Assembly: GCA_947166295.1 (NCBI GenBank)
Contig: CAMVDR010000004.1
Location: 1 to 55,258 of the forward strand
Direction of reading: 5' to 3'
Length of the DNA: 55,258 bases
DNA from: an uncultured Candidatus Saccharibacteria bacterium
GTDB lineage: Bacteria; Patescibacteriota; Saccharimonadia; Saccharimonadales; Saccharimonadaceae
In this document: positions 2 to 47,199 of the stretch, in pieces
How positions within the stretch are numbered: the first letter of the stretch is position 1
Layout of the letters: each line of letters begins with the position of its first letter
Made by a program: the position numbers and the translations under genes
Notes under the pieces: generated by a model
What the model saw: only the letters and a program-made list of their open reading frames with translations
Databases searched by the model: none
Told to the model about the DNA's origin: nothing

Positions 2-1618
2 ATAGATTTCTTCTACTATGCTTTCCGTAATGTATTGTTAGTTTCTGTTCCTCTTATTATCTTTTCTATCTTTGTTTTCACTATTCCTCATTCAACTGCA
101 GAAATAAGTAGTGGAGCAGATAATATCCAATTAGTCTTATCTACTTCCTGCACAGTAAATGCGGTAGTTACATCAGAACATACAGTAAGTCTTAATGGTG
201 GACAATTAGATAATAATGTAGGTAATACTAAGCTCAGTGCTTATTGTAATGATAATAATGGTTATAGCATCTATGCAGTAGGTAGTAGTGGAGATGTAGA
301 TGGTAATACAGATCTAATTTATAATAATGGATTTAGCGATAGTTATAATATTAGGACTGGAGTATATGATAGTAATAATGTAGCTAGCCCCTCATCCTGG
401 GCTATGAAACTAACTGCTGGCACTGGTACTGGTATAGATCCAGTTACCGGAGAAAGTGTACCTACTACTCCACCAATAATAGTAAATGGCTATGATAACT
501 ACAGTGCTATACCAAATGTCTATACCCAAGTCGCTAAACGAACATCAGGTACTAGTATGACTACAGACACTAGTGTATCAGGTTCATACTTGAATACAAC
601 TTACCAAATCTATGCTAACTCCGCTCAACCAGCTGGTACCTATAATGGTAAAGTTAAATACGTAATAGTACATCCAAATAGTAACAATAATAATCTAAGC
701 TTTAATGAAGCTTATGCACTGCAGGGCAAAAACCCAGTCAACACGGAAAGCGGTACTTACTATACCATGCAAGATATGACTACAGACATCTGTAACCAAG
801 TAGGCTTATATGGCGAAGCTTCCCAAACGCAATTAGTAGATACTAGAGATAATAATCTCTATTGGGTAGCTAAGCTAGATGATGATAAATGTTGGATGAC
901 GCAAAATCTAGATTTTGACATAGATAGCACTAGAACTTACACTTCCTACGATACAGACTTAGGTTATGCGGGTAGTCAATCAACTTGGATGCCAAGTAGT
1001 TCTACGATTAGTTTTGTCGGTGAAACTGTCCCAGGTTGGAGTAGTAGTTATGCTCCATATTCTGCAGACCCAGGTGACATATATTACTATACATCCAATT
1101 CCACATCGGATGATATAAAATACACTTCACTATCTGCTTGTATATCTGCAGGTCATACGGAAGGAGAATGTAAACACTATCACACTGGTAATTATTATAA
1201 CTGGACTGCCGCTATGGCCACGAACAATACTGGCGATCTAGTAACAAGCGGGACTGATATTGCTACTTCTGTATGTCCTGCCGGTTGGAGATTACCCAGT
1301 GTTAATAATAACGAATTCGGCATTTCATTGGCGCAGTATGGTGTTATTGATAACCAAAGTTCAACAACATATACAGCTAATGGATTTAATATAGTTCGTC
1401 AATTACCGCTTTATTATGTTAGATCGGGTGGAGTTGAATATGATAGTAACCGTATTGCTAATGTTGGTATAAGTGCAAGCTATAGGTCTAGTACGATTCC
1501 TTCGGGATGCTATATGACTAATTTTAATTTTAGCGCCAGTTCTGTTGCCCCGGCTAGTTGTAATAGATATATTGCTGCGAGACGATCAGGAAATCCCATT
1601 CGTTGCCTCGCTCGGTAA
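2..1618 (+). CDS. FISUMP-domain surface protein (5' end outside window)
   Basis: The reading frame is open from base 2 and encodes a stretch (FFYYAFRNVLLVSVPL) that matches the N-terminal region of the gene at 30946, so the start lies upstream of the window; the TTG at 35 is not a start. A membrane segment is followed by a Ser/Asn/Thr-rich stalk (to about base 690) almost identical to that of the 30946 protein. The C-terminal half has the layout of the FISUMP (Fib_succ_major) family: LVDTRDNNLYWVAKL, DKCWMTQNLDFD, NYYNWTAAMA, CPAGWRLP, and a final IRCLAR. Expected topology is one N-terminal anchor with the rest outside. No sorting motif is visible at the C terminus. Role is probably surface adhesion or recognition, by inference only. 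Confidence 0.85.
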   Translation: MDFFYYAFRNVLLVSVPLIIFSIFVFTIPHSTAEISSGADNIQLVLSTSCTVNAVVTSEHTVSLNGGQLDNNVGNTKLSAYCNDNNGYSIYAVGSSGDVDGNTDLIYNNGFSDSYNIRTGVYDSNNVASPSSWAMKLTAGTGTGIDPVTGESVPTTPPIIVNGYDNYSAIPNVYTQVAKRTSGTSMTTDTSVSGSYLNTTYQIYANSAQPAGTYNGKVKYVIVHPNSNNNNLSFNEAYALQGKNPVNTESGTYYTMQDMTTDICNQVGLYGEASQTQLVDTRDNNLYWVAKLDDDKCWMTQNLDFDIDSTRTYTSYDTDLGYAGSQSTWMPSSSTISFVGETVPGWSSSYAPYSADPGDIYYYTSNSTSDDIKYTSLSACISAGHTEGECKHYHTGNYYNWTAAMATNNTGDLVTSGTDIATSVCPAGWRLPSVNNNEFGISLAQYGVIDNQSSTTYTANGFNIVRQLPLYYVRSGGVEYDSNRIANVGISASYRSSTIPSGCYMTNFNFSASSVAPASCNRYIAARRSGNPIRCLAR

Positions 1619-11276: not shown

Positions 11277-13229
11277 ATGTTTAAATGGCGCACCAAAGAT
11301 GTATGTGAGAAAGATATTCTATCTCCAGACGGTCGCTTAAAGTGTCATTTTTCTCTTAAATCTGGACATATTTCATATTCCGTATCCAGAAATGATAAAG
11401 TCATTATTCGCCCGTCCAAATTAGGCTTTCTGATCTGCGGCGAAAATCCTCTACGCGACAATCTCAAACTCATTCGCACACATACTCGAAAACATGATGA
11501 AATTATAGAACTTCAGTGGGGTGAAGATCGCTATATCCAGAATACTTACACCGAGACGGCCTTTTATCTAGCCGAAAGTAAAGAGTCTCGGCGTATTTTT
11601 ACTATCAGATTTCGCGTTTTTAACGACAGTGTAGCTTTTCGCTACGAAATCCCGCCTCAGCCCAAATTTCGTCGCATTACCATCAAAGACGAGCTCACCG
11701 AATTTAACCTAGATCTCAATACTTTGGCTTGGAAAATCCCCGCCTATCAGCCAGATCGTTACGAATATAATTACGAAAAATCCGCCGTTTACGATCTTCA
11801 AAATTCCGTTCATACCCCACTTACGCTTCGCACACCCAACGGTTACTATCTTGCCATCCACGAGGCCGCGCTTTACAATTATGGCTCCATGACAATTAAA
11901 CTAAACGCTCAGAATATTCTCAAGGCTGATATCACGCCACTTTCCGATGGTACTAAGGCCCACATCAATTTACCTTTCAACACACCTTGGCGACTAATTA
12001 TGGTCGCAAGTTCTGCTATCGAACTCACCGCAAATCGTACAATGTATGCCCTCAACAAGGCCCCCACTCAAGATTTTAGCTGGGTTCACACACTTAAGTT
12101 TATTGGTATTTGGTGGGCGATGTATGTGGGCGAATGGACATGGGCACCAGGCGAACGTCACGGCGCCACTACTGAGCACGCCAAGGAATACATCGACGCC
12201 GCCGTCCGTCTTGGTGTCTCTGGCCTCCTTATCGAAGGCTGGAACGAAGGCTGGGAGGGTGATTGGCTAGAAAATGGTATTAATAATAAATTTACCGTCG
12301 CTACATCAGATTTCAACTTAGAAGAAGTCGCCACCTATGCCACAGAACATAACATTGAGCTGGTCGGCCATCATGAAACCGTCGGTTTTGTTGATAACTA
12401 CGAAAAACAACTAGAGGCTGCCTATAGTTATTATGCTGCCAATAACATCCACTATATCAAAACCGGCTATGCTGGTAGTATGATGATGATAAACGGTCGC
12501 CGCGAATTTCACCACTCCCAACTTGGTGTTAATCATTACCAAAAAACTGTAGAACTCGCCGCTAAAAACCATATTTGTCTAGATATTCATGAACCTATCA
12601 AGGGTACCGGTATCGAACGTACCTGGCCTAACCTCCTTAGCCGTGAAGGTGCTCGCGGCCAAGAATATGAGGGTGGCGCACTCAGTCCTTCGCATGCTTG
12701 TTTCCTGCCCTATACTCGCTTGCTTGCCGGTGGCATGGATTACACTAGCGGCATTTTCGATCTAGCTAATAGCGTCAAGCGCATGGCTACTACTCTAGCG
12801 CGTCAAGTGGCTTACTTTGTCACTATCTATTCTGGCATGGCTATGGCCGCCGACCGCCCGTTTATTTACGAAAATCGCTTTCCAAATGTCTTTGAATTTA
12901 TCCGCGCCGTCCCCACCAATTTCGAAAAAACTCTACCCTTACTCGGTGAAATTGGCGAGTATTATGTCGTTGCTCGCAAAGATCGTGAATCTGCAGATTG
13001 GTTCCTAGGTGGCGTTACCAACGAAAATGGCCGACGCGTGCATATCGATTTAGACTTTCTAGATAGTGGTGCTTACCAGGCTACCATCTATGCTGACAGC
13101 GACGATACTCATTACCGCGAAAATCCATTTGGTATCAATATCCAGCAAAAACATGTAGGTCGTGGCGAAGCGCTAGATATCTATATGGCTCCTGGGGGCG
13201 GTTTTGCGATACAGTTGAAGAAACTCTAA
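11277..13229 (+). CDS. Glycoside hydrolase family 97
   Basis: 650 residues, full length for GH97. An N-terminal beta-sandwich (LSPDGRLKCHFSLKSGHISY, FRVFNDSVAFRYEIP) is followed by a TIM barrel (WWAMYVGEWTWAPGERHGAT near residue 278, GLLIEGWNEGWEGDW near 315, ELVGHHETVGF, CLDIHEPIKGTG) and a C-terminal beta-domain. GH97 enzymes are alpha-glucosidases or alpha-galactosidases. No signal peptide is visible, so it probably acts in the cytoplasm on imported or stored glucans. Its 3' end overlaps the convergent sortase gene by 4 bp. Confidence 0.88.
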   Translation: MFKWRTKDVCEKDILSPDGRLKCHFSLKSGHISYSVSRNDKVIIRPSKLGFLICGENPLRDNLKLIRTHTRKHDEIIELQWGEDRYIQNTYTETAFYLAESKESRRIFTIRFRVFNDSVAFRYEIPPQPKFRRITIKDELTEFNLDLNTLAWKIPAYQPDRYEYNYEKSAVYDLQNSVHTPLTLRTPNGYYLAIHEAALYNYGSMTIKLNAQNILKADITPLSDGTKAHINLPFNTPWRLIMVASSAIELTANRTMYALNKAPTQDFSWVHTLKFIGIWWAMYVGEWTWAPGERHGATTEHAKEYIDAAVRLGVSGLLIEGWNEGWEGDWLENGINNKFTVATSDFNLEEVATYATEHNIELVGHHETVGFVDNYEKQLEAAYSYYAANNIHYIKTGYAGSMMMINGRREFHHSQLGVNHYQKTVELAAKNHICLDIHEPIKGTGIERTWPNLLSREGARGQEYEGGALSPSHACFLPYTRLLAGGMDYTSGIFDLANSVKRMATTLARQVAYFVTIYSGMAMAADRPFIYENRFPNVFEFIRAVPTNFEKTLPLLGEIGEYYVVARKDRESADWFLGGVTNENGRRVHIDLDFLDSGAYQATIYADSDDTHYRENPFGINIQQKHVGRGEALDIYMAPGGGFAIQLKKL

Positions 13230-13723
13230 TCTTTTATCTCGGCCGTAATTATTAGCCGATGTGTAGCGTCGCCACCGTCTAGCAAATCCCCTATGCAAGT
13301 CATAATTTCCAAAGTCTGTTTCTCAGCAGGCGCAAGGATTTTACTCATATCAACATTGGCTTTTTCTAATACTCTTATATTTTTAACTACATAAATGCCA
13401 TTGTCGTAATTTATCTCATCGCCTATTTTTACATTATTAAGATTTTGAAATACCGTGGCGGAGTGTCCAATTAGTAAAGTTTTATTTTTGGCTTTACTAA
13501 AGCTCCCTACTATCGCGTCTGGCGTTTTAAGTTCGCGATTTTCTAATTGTAATGTAGCTACATCAGTAGTCAGGTTAATGCTCGGAATATTTAGTTTTGT
13601 CGATATTTCATAACTTTTTGCTGCTTCGGCTGGCTGCAGACCCCAAACCACATAGGCACCAAAAACTACTACATATAGCCCTATCAAAACAGTTCTAAGG
13701 TTTAACCGTTTCTTAAGTTCCAC
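13226..13723 (-). CDS. Sortase
   Basis: 165 residues from GTG 13723, preceded by AGGAGGAG; the longer frame runs through a TGCTATAAT promoter and is rejected. One N-terminal membrane segment (about residues 8-26) is followed by a sortase domain with His in LLIGHSATVF (near 81), Cys in IMTCIGD (near 140) and Arg in HRLIIT (near 155). Sortases link secreted proteins to the cell wall at LPXTG-like motifs. No protein in this window shows a clear C-terminal sorting signal, so its substrates are elsewhere or use an unrecognised motif. Confidence 0.85.
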   Translation of the reverse strand: MELKKRLNLRTVLIGLYVVVFGAYVVWGLQPAEAAKSYEISTKLNIPSINLTTDVATLQLENRELKTPDAIVGSFSKAKNKTLLIGHSATVFQNLNNVKIGDEINYDNGIYVVKNIRVLEKANVDMSKILAPAEKQTLEIMTCIGDLLDGGDATHRLIITAEIKD

Positions 13724-13776
13724 ACTCTCCTCCTTGATTTCATTATAGCACAAGCTTCATAAAATAATTATGATTT

Positions 13777-13806
13777 TTGTTTGTAAAACATTTTTTATGC
13801 TACAAT
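13777..13806 (+). promoter_or_regulatory. Promoter of FISUMP leader RNA, copy A
   Basis: TTGTTT (13777-13782), an 18-base spacer and an extended -10, TGCTACAAT (TACAAT 13801-13806). The expected start point is about 13811-13813, so the RNA begins at or within the first bases of helix P1. The element TACAATAAAAGTGC is shared with copy B. Confidence 0.65.
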
Positions 13807-13810
13807 AAAA

Positions 13811-13980
13811 GTGCGATACTTAATTAAAATGAGGCCTTTTATAATGGCTATAAAAAGGTTGTAAAACTAAACGGCACCGTAAGGACCAAAAGTTTGCAAC
13901 CTTCTAGGCTTCAAATAATTAGGTATCGCACCTTGCGGTGCCATTTTTGTAATACTATCCCGTTTGCACAAAATGACATC
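13811..13980 (+). ncRNA. Structured leader RNA, copy A
   Basis: Helices read from the sequence: P1 13811-13826/13916-13931 (16 bp, one G-U); P2 13830-13837/13906-13913 (8 bp); hairpin P3 13838-13843/13849-13854; P4 13855-13861/13897-13903 plus inner pairs. The P4 loop carries GGCACCGTAAGG (13873-13884), complementary to CCTTGCGGTGCC (13931-13942) directly after P1: a pseudoknot, or a terminator stem followed by ATTTTTGT. An alternative hairpin pairs 13937-13950 with 13968-13980. Copy B keeps every one of these pairings with different stem sequences. The gene start follows 33 bases later. No known riboswitch class was recognised. Confidence 0.8.
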
Positions 13981-14013
13981 ACAAAGATAAAGAAACTAAA
14001 CAAGGCGATGCAT

Positions 14014-15534
14014 ATGGGTTATAGAACCACAAAGTCTAAAATAAAAGTAGAAAGCGATAAAGCTAATAACTATACAGAGTTCTACTATCATTTCTTCCGT
14101 AATATTCTTCTAGTTTCTATACCATTAACTATCATCTCCGCCCTAGCATTAAGTATTTCTCATTCTTCTGCCCGCATTTCCTCCTCGGATAGTTTAGCTA
14201 TTTCCGTTCCTTCCTCTTGTACTTTATCTAGTTCTGTAGATGAAGCTCATAGTGCCAGTATAGTAAATGGTAGATATGAAGAAGGTATAGGAACTACTAC
14301 ATTATCTACCTTTTGTAATGATAAAAATGGTTATAGTGTTTATGCTATTGGTGATAGTCTAAATAGCGAAGGTAATAATGTATTAGTTAGCAATATTAAT
14401 AATAATTATGATATACCTTCAGGCACTGCTTCTTCAGGTGATACTTCTAACTGGGCTATGAAACTAAGTCTTAAGGCAGGTGATACTTCCTCTACTCCGC
14501 CTACCATTATTCCTCCATTTGATAACTACTCTACAGTCCCTATTACTTGGACTAAAGTAGCTACTATACCTTCTTCTACTGCTGATATGAAGGAAGGTTC
14601 TAACTTTACTACTACTTATGCTACATATATCTCTCCTACTCAAGCTGCAGGAACATATTTAGGACAAGTAAAGTATCTATTAACACATCCTTCAGCAGCA
14701 GAGCCCGACACCAGCTATTTCATTATGCAGGAAGTCGCTAATTGGAAGAATGATTTAGACGAAGAAGAAAGCGTACAAGCAATAGATATTAGAGACGGTA
14801 AGATTTATTGGGCAACAAAACTAAAAGACGGAAATATTTGGATGACGCAGAACCTAGACTTTGATATAAGCGCTAATACTGCTCTTAACTCTGAGACTAC
14901 AGATTTAAATGTAATTTATAACAACGGACAATACCAAGAATACAACGAAGGATACACTAAGCCAGGGAATACTATCTACTGGACGCCAGCGAATACGGCT
15001 ACTACTGTAAACTTCAATAGTACTGCTGTGACTGGTTGGGTAAGTAGCAATACTGCACCATATTCCGCCAGCAAAACAGATAGCACAGAAACAGGTCACG
15101 CATCGCTGGGCAATTATTATAACTGGACAGCAGCTATAGCATCTAATAATTCTTCCACTCTAATGACTAGCACATATAACAATGTGGCCAATAATCCACA
15201 AAACTCTATTTGTCCTAAAGGGTGGAGACTGCCTACTATATCTAGTGTTGCCAACAATAATGAATTCAGCAATTTGAACAATTTATATAATAACGGCTCT
15301 ACCACTAGCGAAGCCGGCCTAATAGCGTATCCCCTATGGTTCGCGCAGTCCGGCCGTATAACTAATGACGGCGTACTTTCTAATTATGGTACTGGAGGAC
15401 GCTATTGGTCCAGTACGATCTATGATAGTGCCAATGTCTACGGCCTTGTATTCAATACTAATTACGTTAGTCCGGCTCATCATGATTATGTTGATAAGAG
15501 TGCCGGCTGGTCCGTCCGTTGCGTGGCTAGATAG
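14014..15534 (+). CDS. FISUMP-domain surface protein
   Basis: 506 residues from ATG 14014 (MGYRTTKSK), preceded by AAGGCG; an in-frame ATG at 14008 overlaps that site. A basic cytoplasmic tail of about 25 residues, one membrane segment (about 33-50), a Ser/Thr/Asn-rich stalk distantly like those at 2 and 30946 (CNDKNGYSVYAIG, NWAMKLS, ITWTKVA, QAAGTYLGQVKYLLTHP), then a FISUMP head: AIDIRDGKIYWATKL, GNIWMTQNLDFD, NYYNWTAAIA, CPKGWRLPT, GRYWSSTI, SVRCVAR. Probably an outer-face adhesin. It sits directly behind leader RNA copy A. Confidence 0.88.
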   Translation: MGYRTTKSKIKVESDKANNYTEFYYHFFRNILLVSIPLTIISALALSISHSSARISSSDSLAISVPSSCTLSSSVDEAHSASIVNGRYEEGIGTTTLSTFCNDKNGYSVYAIGDSLNSEGNNVLVSNINNNYDIPSGTASSGDTSNWAMKLSLKAGDTSSTPPTIIPPFDNYSTVPITWTKVATIPSSTADMKEGSNFTTTYATYISPTQAAGTYLGQVKYLLTHPSAAEPDTSYFIMQEVANWKNDLDEEESVQAIDIRDGKIYWATKLKDGNIWMTQNLDFDISANTALNSETTDLNVIYNNGQYQEYNEGYTKPGNTIYWTPANTATTVNFNSTAVTGWVSSNTAPYSASKTDSTETGHASLGNYYNWTAAIASNNSSTLMTSTYNNVANNPQNSICPKGWRLPTISSVANNNEFSNLNNLYNNGSTTSEAGLIAYPLWFAQSGRITNDGVLSNYGTGGRYWSSTIYDSANVYGLVFNTNYVSPAHHDYVDKSAGWSVRCVAR

Positions 15535-30678: not shown

Positions 30679-30707
30679 TTGATTTTTTATTTTTTGCGCG
30701 CTACAAT
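30679..30707 (+). promoter_or_regulatory. Promoter of FISUMP leader RNA, copy B
   Basis: TTGATT (30679-30684), a 17-base spacer and TACAAT (30702-30707). The start point is expected at about 30712, the first base of P1. TACAATAAAAGTGC is identical to copy A although the flanks differ. Confidence 0.65.
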
Positions 30708-30711
30708 AAAA

Positions 30712-30901
30712 GTGCAATAATTAAACATTTTCAATATATAAAGGGCAGCGATATTTTATATCTAGTGTTCTTAGAACAATAATATTGGCACCGTAAGGAA
30801 GTCAACCTTGTTCTGGGAGCACTGCCCATGAGAATGTTTGATTATTGCACCCCTTGCGGTGCCATTTTTGTATTACTACCCCGTTTACACAAAATGGCGC
30901 C
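30712..30901 (+). ncRNA. Structured leader RNA, copy B
   Basis: Same architecture as copy A. P1 30712-30732/30830-30850 pairs over 21 bp (two G-U) with a sequence unrelated to copy A beyond GTGC; P2 GGGCAG 30743-30748/30822-30827; hairpin P3 30750-30754/30758-30762; P4 30764-30779/30808-30823, up to 16 bp. The P4 loop has GGCACCGTAAGG (30787-30798), complementary to CCTTGCGGTGCC (30852-30863) right after P1. The alternative hairpin pairs 30858-30871 with 30889-30901 over 13 bp plus one bulged U. The coding sequence begins 44 bases later. Confidence 0.82.
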
Positions 30902-30945
30902 ACAAAGATAAGGTATTAACTAATAAATAATACAAGGTGATGCAT

Positions 30946-32748
30946 ATGGGTTATAGAACCACAAAGTCTAAAACAAAAGTAGAAAGTAATAGAAGCAAAT
31001 CATTGAATAGTGTAGATGCTAGTTATACAGAATTCTTCTATCATACTTTCCGCAATATGCTTCTAGTTTCTGTACCTCTCCTTATCCTCTCTGCTCTTAT
31101 CTTAGGCCTTAGTACTTCTCACAGTTCTGCAGTAGGTTCTGGTAGTAGTGGCACAGATAATGTCCAATTAGTCTTATCTACTTCCTGTACAGTAAATGCA
31201 GTAGTTACATCAGAACATACAGTAAGCCTTAATGGTGGACAATTAGATAATAATGTAGGTAATACTAAACTCAGTGCTTATTGTAATGATAATAATGGCT
31301 ATAGTATCTATGCAGTAGGTAGTAGTAATAATATAGATGGTAATACAGACTTAGTTAATACCGTAAATGAAAGCTATAACATTAGAACTGGAGTATATGA
31401 TAGTAATAATGTAGCTAATCCTTCATCCTGGGCTATGAAACTAACTGCCGATACCGGTACTGGCATAGATCCAGTTACTGGAGAAAGTGTACCTACTACC
31501 CCACCCACTATATTAAATGGCTATGACAACTACAGTGCTATACCAAATGTCTATACTCAAGTAGCTAAACGAACATCTGGTACTAGTATGACTACAGACA
31601 CTAGTGTATCAGGTTCATACTTAAATACTACCTACCAAATCTATGCTAACTCTGCTCAACCAGCTGGTACTTATAATGGTAAAGTAAAGTATGTAATAGT
31701 ACATCCAAATAGTAATCATAACACCATCCCAGATTTAGATACTGCCTTTGCTGCAGCTGGTAAAATGAAAGTTTATGAAGAGGGTAGTAGTTCATACTAC
31801 GCTATGCAAGATATGGACTCTCAAATATGTAGCTTTGTAAGTGGCACTGGCGCAAGCACTGCTACGCAGTTAGTAGATACTAGAGATAATAACCTCTACT
31901 GGGTAGCTAAACTGGAAGATGGTAAATGCTGGATGACTAGCAACTTAGATCTAGATATAGGCGGATTAAATACTGCACCACTCAACTCCAACAATACAGA
32001 TATCAGTACGGATCCTAATGTTTATGTCAGTAGTGGTATTTACTCAGACTATAATGTATCAGATGGAGTTTATACTTGGAATCCAGTATCTACCGCTAAA
32101 ACTTCCAGCTACTATATCGATAATACCACCGTTAAACCATCAGCTTGGCCTACCGATAACAATGGTCAAACCAAGCCATATTCAGCAGAAGGTGGTGATA
32201 CATATTACTATACCTCTAATTCTACTAGCAATGATACGAGATACAATTCACTCCAAGCCTGCAAACCAAGCCATACTGAAGCAGAATGCAAACGTTACTT
32301 TGCCGGCAATTACTACAACTGGTCTGCGGCTATAGCGTCTAATAACTCCACCAATATAGGCAGTACGGCTGGAGAGATAGCCGCTAACTCTATTTGTCCT
32401 AAAGGTTGGAGGTTGCCCAATGCTTCCCAAATAAACAATGAGTATAATGAGTTTGGTATTATGTTCTATAAGGCAGGTATTACTGCAAAATTATTCGCCG
32501 GGAACGATTCTGTAGGCTATAAAGATGATGGTTTTAATAAAATACGTTCTAACCCATATTATTTTGTGCGGGCCGGTGGTGTCACCCTCAGCACTCTATA
32601 TTATCCCGGCGTCAACGGTCGCTACTGGTCTAGTACGGTTGAAAATGGCAACATTGCCTACTACCTAAACTTTAACAATGCCGATATTTCCCCAGATCAT
32701 GAAAGTGCCAGATATGGCGGATGGCCTGTACGCTGCGTAGCACGTTGA
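30946..32748 (+). CDS. FISUMP-domain surface protein
   Basis: 600 residues from ATG 30946 (MGYRTTKSK), preceded by AAGGTG; earlier in-frame GTG 30937 and ATG 30940 overlap that site. Basic N-terminal tail, membrane segment (about 42-60), a stalk nearly identical to the protein at 2-1618 (TSEHTVSLNGGQLDNN, AYCNDNNGYSIYAVGSS, QPAGTYNGKVKYVIVHP), then a FISUMP head: LVDTRDNNLYWVAKL, GKCWMTSNLDLD, NYYNWSAAIA, CPKGWRLP, GRYWSSTV, PVRCVAR. Probably displayed on the cell surface. Expression likely passes through leader RNA copy B. Confidence 0.9.
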   Translation: MGYRTTKSKTKVESNRSKSLNSVDASYTEFFYHTFRNMLLVSVPLLILSALILGLSTSHSSAVGSGSSGTDNVQLVLSTSCTVNAVVTSEHTVSLNGGQLDNNVGNTKLSAYCNDNNGYSIYAVGSSNNIDGNTDLVNTVNESYNIRTGVYDSNNVANPSSWAMKLTADTGTGIDPVTGESVPTTPPTILNGYDNYSAIPNVYTQVAKRTSGTSMTTDTSVSGSYLNTTYQIYANSAQPAGTYNGKVKYVIVHPNSNHNTIPDLDTAFAAAGKMKVYEEGSSSYYAMQDMDSQICSFVSGTGASTATQLVDTRDNNLYWVAKLEDGKCWMTSNLDLDIGGLNTAPLNSNNTDISTDPNVYVSSGIYSDYNVSDGVYTWNPVSTAKTSSYYIDNTTVKPSAWPTDNNGQTKPYSAEGGDTYYYTSNSTSNDTRYNSLQACKPSHTEAECKRYFAGNYYNWSAAIASNNSTNIGSTAGEIAANSICPKGWRLPNASQINNEYNEFGIMFYKAGITAKLFAGNDSVGYKDDGFNKIRSNPYYFVRAGGVTLSTLYYPGVNGRYWSSTVENGNIAYYLNFNNADISPDHESARYGGWPVRCVAR

Positions 32749-46296: not shown

Positions 46297-47199
46297 CTAA
46301 GCGTGAATAACAGTATGCTTCCGGCGATGAATCTCGCGTAGATCCTCATTTACGACGTGGGTATAAGTCATGGTGACTTGGATGCTGGTGTGGCCGAGAA
46401 GCTCTTTGACATAGACAATATTAGTATTATTACGGAGTAAGTCGGTCGCAAATGAGTGGCGAAGCGTATGCGGATGAATATTCTTCTCCAGGCCGGCTTT
46501 GATCGCGGCATTCTTAACGACCATCTGAACGACGCCAGGGTTAATCTTCTCCTGGCCTTTTTGCTGCTCCGAAACAAAGAGTGCCGGATATGGATCGTCT
46601 CGAAGCGCGAGATACTCATCAATATATTTATGAGTAACTGGATCAATAAAGCAGACGCGAGGCTTATTGCCCTTTCCGATCACAGTAAAACTATCAATTC
46701 CTGGCTTGATTTGCGTGCGCTCCATAGCGCAAAGCTCGCCATTACGAAGACCGGCGCTAAACATCAGAGCAATGATAGCGCGATTTCTGTAACGCTTGAA
46801 TTTAGTGTAGCCGGCACCTTTTTGAAATACGGCATGGAGCATAGCCTGAACCTCATCTACTTCGAGGTAATCGACAACGCGAGAATCTCGCTTTGGAATC
46901 CCAACAGCCTCGGCGTCCAATGCCTTATAATTAAGAGCCTTGAGGTGTTTCAAGACGACGCGAAGCTTCAAGATATAACCGCGCACGGTATTAGAAGTGC
47001 GTGTCTTCCTGAGGTTCGCCGTCCATTTACGGACTTGATCAAACTCAAGCTCCGAGATAGGAATGTCGCCGAGAAAATCGACGATAGACTTCATGGCGCA
47101 CCTGTTCATCTCCTCGGTCTTGGCCGACTGATTTTTGTAGACGATCACGTCTTTACGATAGAGCTCAAAAGCTTCCGATAAAGTTAAATCTGGTTTCAT
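46297..47199 (-). CDS. Tyrosine recombinase/integrase
   Basis: 300 residues. An N-terminal SAM-like DNA-binding domain (LTLSEAFELYRKD to about 95) and a catalytic domain with Arg in SAGLRNGEL, Lys in VIGKGNKPR, HPHTLRHSFAT, LLGHTSIQVT and the Tyr in TMTYTHV. It resembles XerC-like integrases. The position 210 bases from the tRNA fragment and the direction toward it are typical of island integrases. ATG 47199 is preceded by GGAAAGGAA, and the upstream orf ends 51 bases before, so they are probably co-transcribed. Confidence 0.92.
   Translation of the reverse strand: MKPDLTLSEAFELYRKDVIVYKNQSAKTEEMNRCAMKSIVDFLGDIPISELEFDQVRKWTANLRKTRTSNTVRGYILKLRVVLKHLKALNYKALDAEAVGIPKRDSRVVDYLEVDEVQAMLHAVFQKGAGYTKFKRYRNRAIIALMFSAGLRNGELCAMERTQIKPGIDSFTVIGKGNKPRVCFIDPVTHKYIDEYLALRDDPYPALFVSEQQKGQEKINPGVVQMVVKNAAIKAGLEKNIHPHTLRHSFATDLLRNNTNIVYVKELLGHTSIQVTMTYTHVVNEDLREIHRRKHTVIHA

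Follow-up and report, generated by a model that had tools for sequence, protein, structure and literature searches.

A family of pseudoknotted leader RNAs in Saccharibacteria, repeated before surface-protein genes and proposed to act as transcription attenuators

We describe a family of structured leader RNAs in Candidatus Saccharibacteria that combine a long closing helix, P1, with a pseudoknot that crosses it. That this is a real structured RNA family, previously undescribed, we regard as virtually certain, and most or all of the genes behind the leaders in the genome studied here encode surface proteins. The window, by which we mean the whole stretch of 55,258 nucleotides that was analysed (contig CAMVDR010000004.1 of an uncultured Candidatus Saccharibacteria bacterium), contains two of these leaders, A (13811-13980) and B (30712-30901), both found as they had been described in a first-pass annotation; their features are collected in Table 1. 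The leader would probably serve as a cis-acting transcription attenuator, a reading to which we give somewhat better than even weight, and the genes behind it have very likely been exchanged between sites.

P1 and the pseudoknot

In both window leaders P1 is paired despite unrelated sequence, over ~15-16 bp in A and 22 bp in B (16 and 21 bp in the first-pass annotation). The pseudoknot proposed there was recovered as well: GGCACCGTAAGG in the P4 loop pairs with CCTTGCGGTGCC just outside P1 over 12 bp, with one G-U pair, in each leader. Judged from sequence, the TACAAT boxes upstream are compatible with the suggested transcription start at P1. The genes behind A and B carry the expected FISUMP (Fib_succ_major) domain, with E values of 4e-6 and 9e-7 that, for either gene taken singly, are under the Pfam cut-off. 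Directly upstream of leader A lies a sortase gene (13226-13753, opposite strand), with a GH97 glycosidase gene (11277-13229) beyond it, and 46297-47199 encodes a tyrosine recombinase, for which the genome has three matches in all.

Table 1. Features of leaders A and B and of the FISUMP genes in the window
Feature	Position	Strand	Basis or remark
Leader A -10 box TACAAT, TGC before it	13801..13806	+	fixed spacing to P1
Leader A P1 5' arm	13812..13826	+	fold + covariation
Leader A pseudoknot strand 1 GGCACCGTAAGG, in P4 loop	13873..13884	+	fold + covariation
Leader A P1 3' arm	13916..13930	+	fold + covariation
Leader A pseudoknot strand 2 CCTTGCGGTGCC	13931-13942	+	
Leader A invariant core CCTTGCGGTGCCATTTTTGT (pseudoknot strand 2 + U tract); 5' gene-exchange boundary	13931..13950	+	
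Leader A terminator-like hairpin, 9 bp, -11.7 kcal/mol, overlaps P1 3' arm	13922..13942	+	
Leader A downstream strand D ATGACATCACAAAG; alternative core partner to pseudoknot strand	13973..13986	+	fold
Gene A: FISUMP protein, 508 aa, membrane-anchor-like N-terminus	14008..15534	+	
Leader B -10 box TACAAT	30702..30707	+	fixed spacing to P1
Leader B P1 5' arm	30712..30733	+	fold + covariation
Leader B P2 5' arm GGGC, partner 30824-30827	30743..30746	+	fold, pseudoknot strands masked
Leader B P4 5' arm, partner 30808-30823	30764..30779	+	fold
Leader B pseudoknot strand 1 GGCACCGTAAGG	30787..30798	+	fold + covariation
Leader B P4 3' arm	30808..30823	+	fold
Leader B P2 3' arm	30824..30827	+	fold
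Leader B P1 3' arm	30829..30850	+	fold + covariation
Leader B terminator-like hairpin GCACC-CCUUGC-GGUGC, -6.7 kcal/mol, then U5	30847..30862	+	
Leader B pseudoknot strand 2 CCTTGCGGTGCC	30852-30863	+	
Leader B invariant core (pseudoknot strand 2 + U tract); 5' gene-exchange boundary	30852..30871	+	
Leader B downstream strand D CAAAATGGCGCCACAAAG	30890..30907	+	fold of longer transcript
Gene B: FISUMP protein, ~602 aa, membrane-anchor-like N-terminus	30940..32748	+	
Third FISUMP gene of the window; contig begins at its 5' end, any leader cut off	35..1618	+	

Covariation, one of the properties that the first-pass annotation had named for checking, was strong in both P1 and the pseudoknot. When 35 copies from the window's genome (G000) were aligned without regard to structure, the top covarying column pairs fell almost entirely on one helix, P1; here 17 of the 19 pairs vary on both sides, and 90.7% of cells are paired. 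Within the same genome, 99.5% of pseudoknot cells are paired, and the variation there is mostly G-U. For P1 and the pseudoknot together, pairing reaches 94% of cells; column shuffles give 77%, and sliding the partner strand by 1-3 columns leaves at most 46%. The corresponding covariation scores are 0.504, 0.187, and at most 0.117.

The pseudoknot was followed across 200 leaders from 73 genomes, comprising 120 distinct combinations of motif and core. Depending on the position, 89-120 of these 120 combinations pair, and positions 3-15 use three to four Watson-Crick types each; position 12, for example, is A-U in 49, G-C in 38, C-G in 7, and U-A in 6. Comparison of own with mixed cores guards against relatedness better than column shuffles do. 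Motif pairing scored 33.4 with the leader's own core, 30.3 with other cores of the same genome, and 26.9 with the cores of other genomes, and the own core surpassed those of other genomes in 92 of 95 cases within the genus (four closest genomes excluded) and in 28 of 29 from other genera. Chance complementarity is ruled out by the covariation and the own-versus-mixed tests. A shared trans-acting partner that would keep the core uniform was also considered: in G007, G060, and G086 the cores differ between copies and the motif follows in cis, so that a shared partner in trans is not needed.

The lack of a recognisable Rfam class, stated in the first-pass annotation, was borne out by Rfam 15, in which no family matched even at permissive thresholds. 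At the gathering score, its covariance models found only tRNAs in the window; with permissive settings, the window leader and both subtypes described below drew nothing at the leaders beyond chance-level matches under the threshold. A search of open-licence papers returned no published regulatory RNA proper to Saccharibacteria. A plasmid or viral element was dismissed, leader B being unmatched in plasmids and the core absent from viral contigs; an exact 20-mer in Phytobacter is a chance match that sits within an ordinary terminator-like palindrome.

Copies, subtypes, and the genes behind them

The first-pass annotation knew of two copies; the genome has at least 35, with 32 exact and 3 near matches to the 20-nt core CCTTGCGGTGCCATTTTTGT in 767 kb. 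To our knowledge, at least 35 copies in 0.77 Mb would rank among the highest densities of any cis-regulatory RNA. All 35 leaders have a TATAAT-type box, P1, a P4 loop of the form GGYRYCG..AGG or a close variant, and a terminal U tract. Because the box invariably lies 5-6 nt upstream of the first P1 pair (35/35 aligned leaders), the RNA should begin at P1. Every leader with enough downstream sequence opens into a large frame, nearly always with a membrane-anchor-like N-terminus; at three sites this frame begins only after an insert. By position, 21 of the ~29 FISUMP genes of the genome could be assigned to a leader; most of the remainder are close to contig ends, and the gene at C1:105089 has none. 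Contigs of this genome and of G005, G086, and G165 often end 25-300 nt after a leader, and such breaks are probably caused by the repeated 5' ends of the genes. A further structured element, ~160 nt long and closed by TTGCATAATTCATTATGTT..AACATAATGAATTATGCAA, is inserted between leader and gene at four sites (L218, L026, L030, and L209; three in G000 and one in G079), 60-220 nt past the core; its comparison with Rfam gave nothing above chance.

The covariance-model search yielded many further matches ahead of surface-protein genes. A model built from the 35 copies (R1) matched 80 of the 174 genomes in the genus and 49 of the 393 in the order. Many in the genus have at least 10 copies, at most 16 being scored per genome. 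Many of the weaker matches belong to a second subtype, with P1 GUCUUA..UAAGAC, the motif AACGGCACCGCAUAA, and the 3' end GACACCUUGCGGUGUCGUUUUUU, which mostly occurs as a single copy per genome; a model built from it (R2) matched 63 of the 393 genomes and 30 of the 156 genera of the order. One subtype 2 leader is present in the window's genome too, before a small membrane-protein-like frame (C6:12254-12394). Because R2 also matches the window-type leaders of that genome, we treat both subtypes as one superfamily. In a sample of the phylum, R2 matched G751, from another order of the class, at 4e-20, and G484 and G814 weakly; P1, the pseudoknot, and the terminator hairpin are legible in the sequences of these last two. 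Among public contigs, those that contain the exact core belong mostly to Saccharibacteria, many of them from the gut of cattle, sheep, and goats. Leaders also occur in five rabbit-gut (Lapin) records titled Oscillospiraceae or Clostridia (L275, L296, L321, L326, and L273), four complete and one cut by the contig end; these are probably mis-binned contigs.

The location of the leaders before surface-protein genes held within the window's genus; outside it, restriction-modification genes and small membrane proteins are found behind them too. The leader-borne genes tested in other genomes of the genus encode FISUMP proteins, a List_Bact-repeat protein, and unrecognised proteins of 480-590 aa. Subtype 2 precedes genes for DUF4352, DUF4190-like, TM2, OmpA-like, and NHL proteins, as well as for a Tsp45I-type restriction enzyme (G446), a type III methyltransferase (G048), and, outside the order, a type IIG enzyme (G484). 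The Tsp45I-type gene (L232:1659-2456) begins 27 nt past the U tract of its leader. In 134 of 159 leaders, an open frame whose start codon has a ribosome-site-like sequence begins within 140 nt (median, 64 nt); the reverse-strand control gave 10.

Exchange of genes behind the leaders

We compared three related genomes (G165, G079, and G175) with that of the window, pairing sites by their upstream flanks. Nineteen paired sites had a gene in both genomes compared; in 16 of them the gene was clearly closest to that of a different site, and in one it was closest to that of its own site. The flanks and the leader match the site, and the 5' junction of the gene lies inside the 20-nt core (16/19 comparisons); in 10 of the 16 exchanged sites, the 3' flank is back to the original site. 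At one site, G175 is 100% identical to the window's genome over 400 bp up to the core and, from the core onward, 100% identical over 200 bp to a different site of that genome. The leader B site carries another gene class in both G165 and G079, which are independent assemblies. Chimeric assembly is unlikely, because the junctions lie in a 20-bp repeat, contigs tend to break at longer repeats, and independent assemblies agree. The 3' junction falls at a conserved gene end (..RCLAR-stop), and ordinary homologous recombination could therefore suffice. We conclude with good confidence that surface-protein genes have been exchanged behind fixed leaders: the leader would stay at its chromosomal site, and the gene behind it would be replaced from other sites by a crossover inside the invariant core.

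The leaders themselves vary at some orthologous sites. At several of these, with upstream DNA that is 94-99% identical, the P1 arms are mostly kept and the P2 and P4 stems are swapped and still paired, the replaced segments being 55-83% identical (clear pairs only). For L117, L190, L191, and L194, compared with sites in G000, the upstream flank is 95-99% identical. Other orthologous sites are 98-100% identical throughout. A search for a donor of the replaced P2/P4 stems found none.

A putative attenuator

Comparison among leaders establishes P1, the pseudoknot, a conserved terminal hairpin with its U tract, and closeness to start codons. The leader lies between the promoter-like box and the start codon, on the same strand. 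Beside the U tract, the core and the 3' part of P1 can form a hairpin of -4 kcal/mol or below in 159 of 171 leaders from the genus and in 29 of 29 from other genera (188 of 200 in total), a threshold reached by ~26% of shuffles; a tract of at least five Us is present in 190 of 200 leaders. The 5' arm of this hairpin lies within P1 and its 3' arm within the pseudoknot strand. Since the terminal hairpin, followed by U5-6, thus shares its arms with both elements, we read the leader as an attenuator. The two states should be mutually exclusive, because the hairpin costs P1 its last pairs and shares a strand with the pseudoknot.

In the proposed mechanism, transcription would begin at P1, and the RNA would fold as P1, P2, and P4, exposing GGCACCG.. 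in the P4 loop. In the ON state, the sequence after P1 would form with this loop a pseudoknot of 12-15 bp that covers the first Us; P1 would stay intact and the polymerase would read through. In the OFF state, the same sequence would instead pair back with P1 at its 3' end; the resulting short G+C hairpin, with U5-6 behind it, would terminate transcription. Some signal would shift the balance between the two. Energy differences of -4.3 +/- 3.8 and -1.4 +/- 4.6 kcal/mol, calculated with an assumed pseudoknot penalty, suggest that the P1-pseudoknot and hairpin states are near balance.

Outside the window's genus, the hairpin arms change in step with the motif. GACGACC..GGGTCGTC occurs with the motif GGGCGACTC, GACGACC-UGC-GGGUCGUC with GGGCGACUC, GACAACC with GGGCAACUC, and GACACCACGCGUGGUGUC with CGGCACCACGC; arms and pseudoknot strand co-vary. 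An upstream strand, UUAUGYGG, can hide the motif there (CCGCAUAA) in a pairing that covaries (24/29); in the window's genus, such a motif-hiding hairpin is unsupported. This lack of support counts against the model, as do other observations on the window subtype: the terminator hairpin is short, at a median of -6.7 kcal/mol, with a small advantage in the own-versus-mixed comparison (13.6 versus 12.9), and some copies drop its A-U pair and retain the pseudoknot. On the last of these grounds, the terminator hairpin as the sole constraint on these strands was rejected. In the window's genus, the core of a read-through transcript can pair with strand D, an element that fits poorly into a simple switch. 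D pairing scored 25.0 with its own core, 24.8 with other cores of the same genome, and 21.9 with those of other genomes; an equal fit within a genome is as expected if D-carrying genes move between sites.

The U tract directly follows the 12-15 bp pseudoknot, which could itself be the terminator, with ON and OFF reversed and relief provided by strand D or by unfolding of P4. The A-A of the pseudoknot pairs with the first Us, the pseudoknot exceeds the short hairpin in length and in strictness of conservation, and D pairs with the same core strand in the window's genus. However, D is made only after the U tract and would be unable to prevent termination there, and in other genera the short hairpin is found in 29/29 leaders and changes together with P1 and the motif, while D is unsupported; we consider the reversed arrangement rather unlikely. 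The core might instead toggle between the pseudoknot and a D hairpin after transcription, in an element whose 5' fold protects the mRNA or tunes translation. An RNA starting at P1 would fit a 5' stabiliser, D and the core make a stable hairpin in longer transcripts, and D tracks core changes at the genome level. Such a role would not need an invariant U tract behind a G+C hairpin, though, and the folds leave the ribosome-binding sequence uncovered in both states; a post-transcriptional element appears unlikely.

Gene exchange falls exactly at the core, which could point to a DNA recombination site, either an attC-like folded single strand or an invertase site, rather than a working RNA. The integron attC comparison is apt as to the variable stem, the short conserved core, and exchange at that core; the leaders differ from attC in being single, scattered sites with a promoter-like box, 5' of a gene. 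By eye, CCTTGCGGTGCCATTTTTGT contains no attC R'/R'' core sites, and no cassette array was seen. The fixed distance to the TATAAT-type box (35/35), the use of G-U as pairs, and the hairpin with its U tract indicate RNA instead, and in other genera the leader is mostly single copy and precedes unrelated genes. The 3' junction is merely a conserved gene end, as expected from ordinary homologous recombination, and we hold a DNA site alone to be very improbable.

As a putative attenuator, the leader finds its closest known counterparts among terminator/antiterminator riboswitches and ribosomal-protein pseudoknot leaders, such as those for fluoride, preQ1, L20, and S4. It resembles them in its P1-closed domain, its pseudoknot, a terminator-like hairpin that shares strands with these, and its position between promoter and start codon. 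It differs in the length of the pseudoknot, which at 12-15 bp takes in the terminator 3' arm and the first Us, and in its hypervariable stems, its copy number in a 0.77-Mb genome, and its lack of an Rfam match. In Borrelia vls and Anaplasma msp2/p44, many surface-protein paralogues exist and sequence moves between chromosomal sites (PMC11499132, PMC11946796). Here, by contrast, ~35 sites exist in parallel, every one of them provided with a promoter-like box and a leader, and what moves is the whole gene, not a segment. We saw no sign of a vls-type single expression site with silent cassettes: all 35 copies keep box and leader, and an open gene as well wherever the downstream sequence suffices.

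We tentatively suggest, as a possibility that we rate below even, that the switch RNA is also the seam of a gene-exchange system across the ~35 expression sites. In that case, the core would be nearly identical at all sites because it must pair in two or three ways, and its identity would permit whole genes to be exchanged without breaking their control. Cultivated Saccharibacteria live attached to other bacteria. The leaders expose a reassortment of surface genes behind fixed sites in this group, and one putative switch would link the control of surface proteins with that of restriction-modification genes elsewhere. If the seam reading is true, an ultrasmall epibiont would gain a combinatorial, RNA-controlled surface repertoire against its bacterial hosts or phages.
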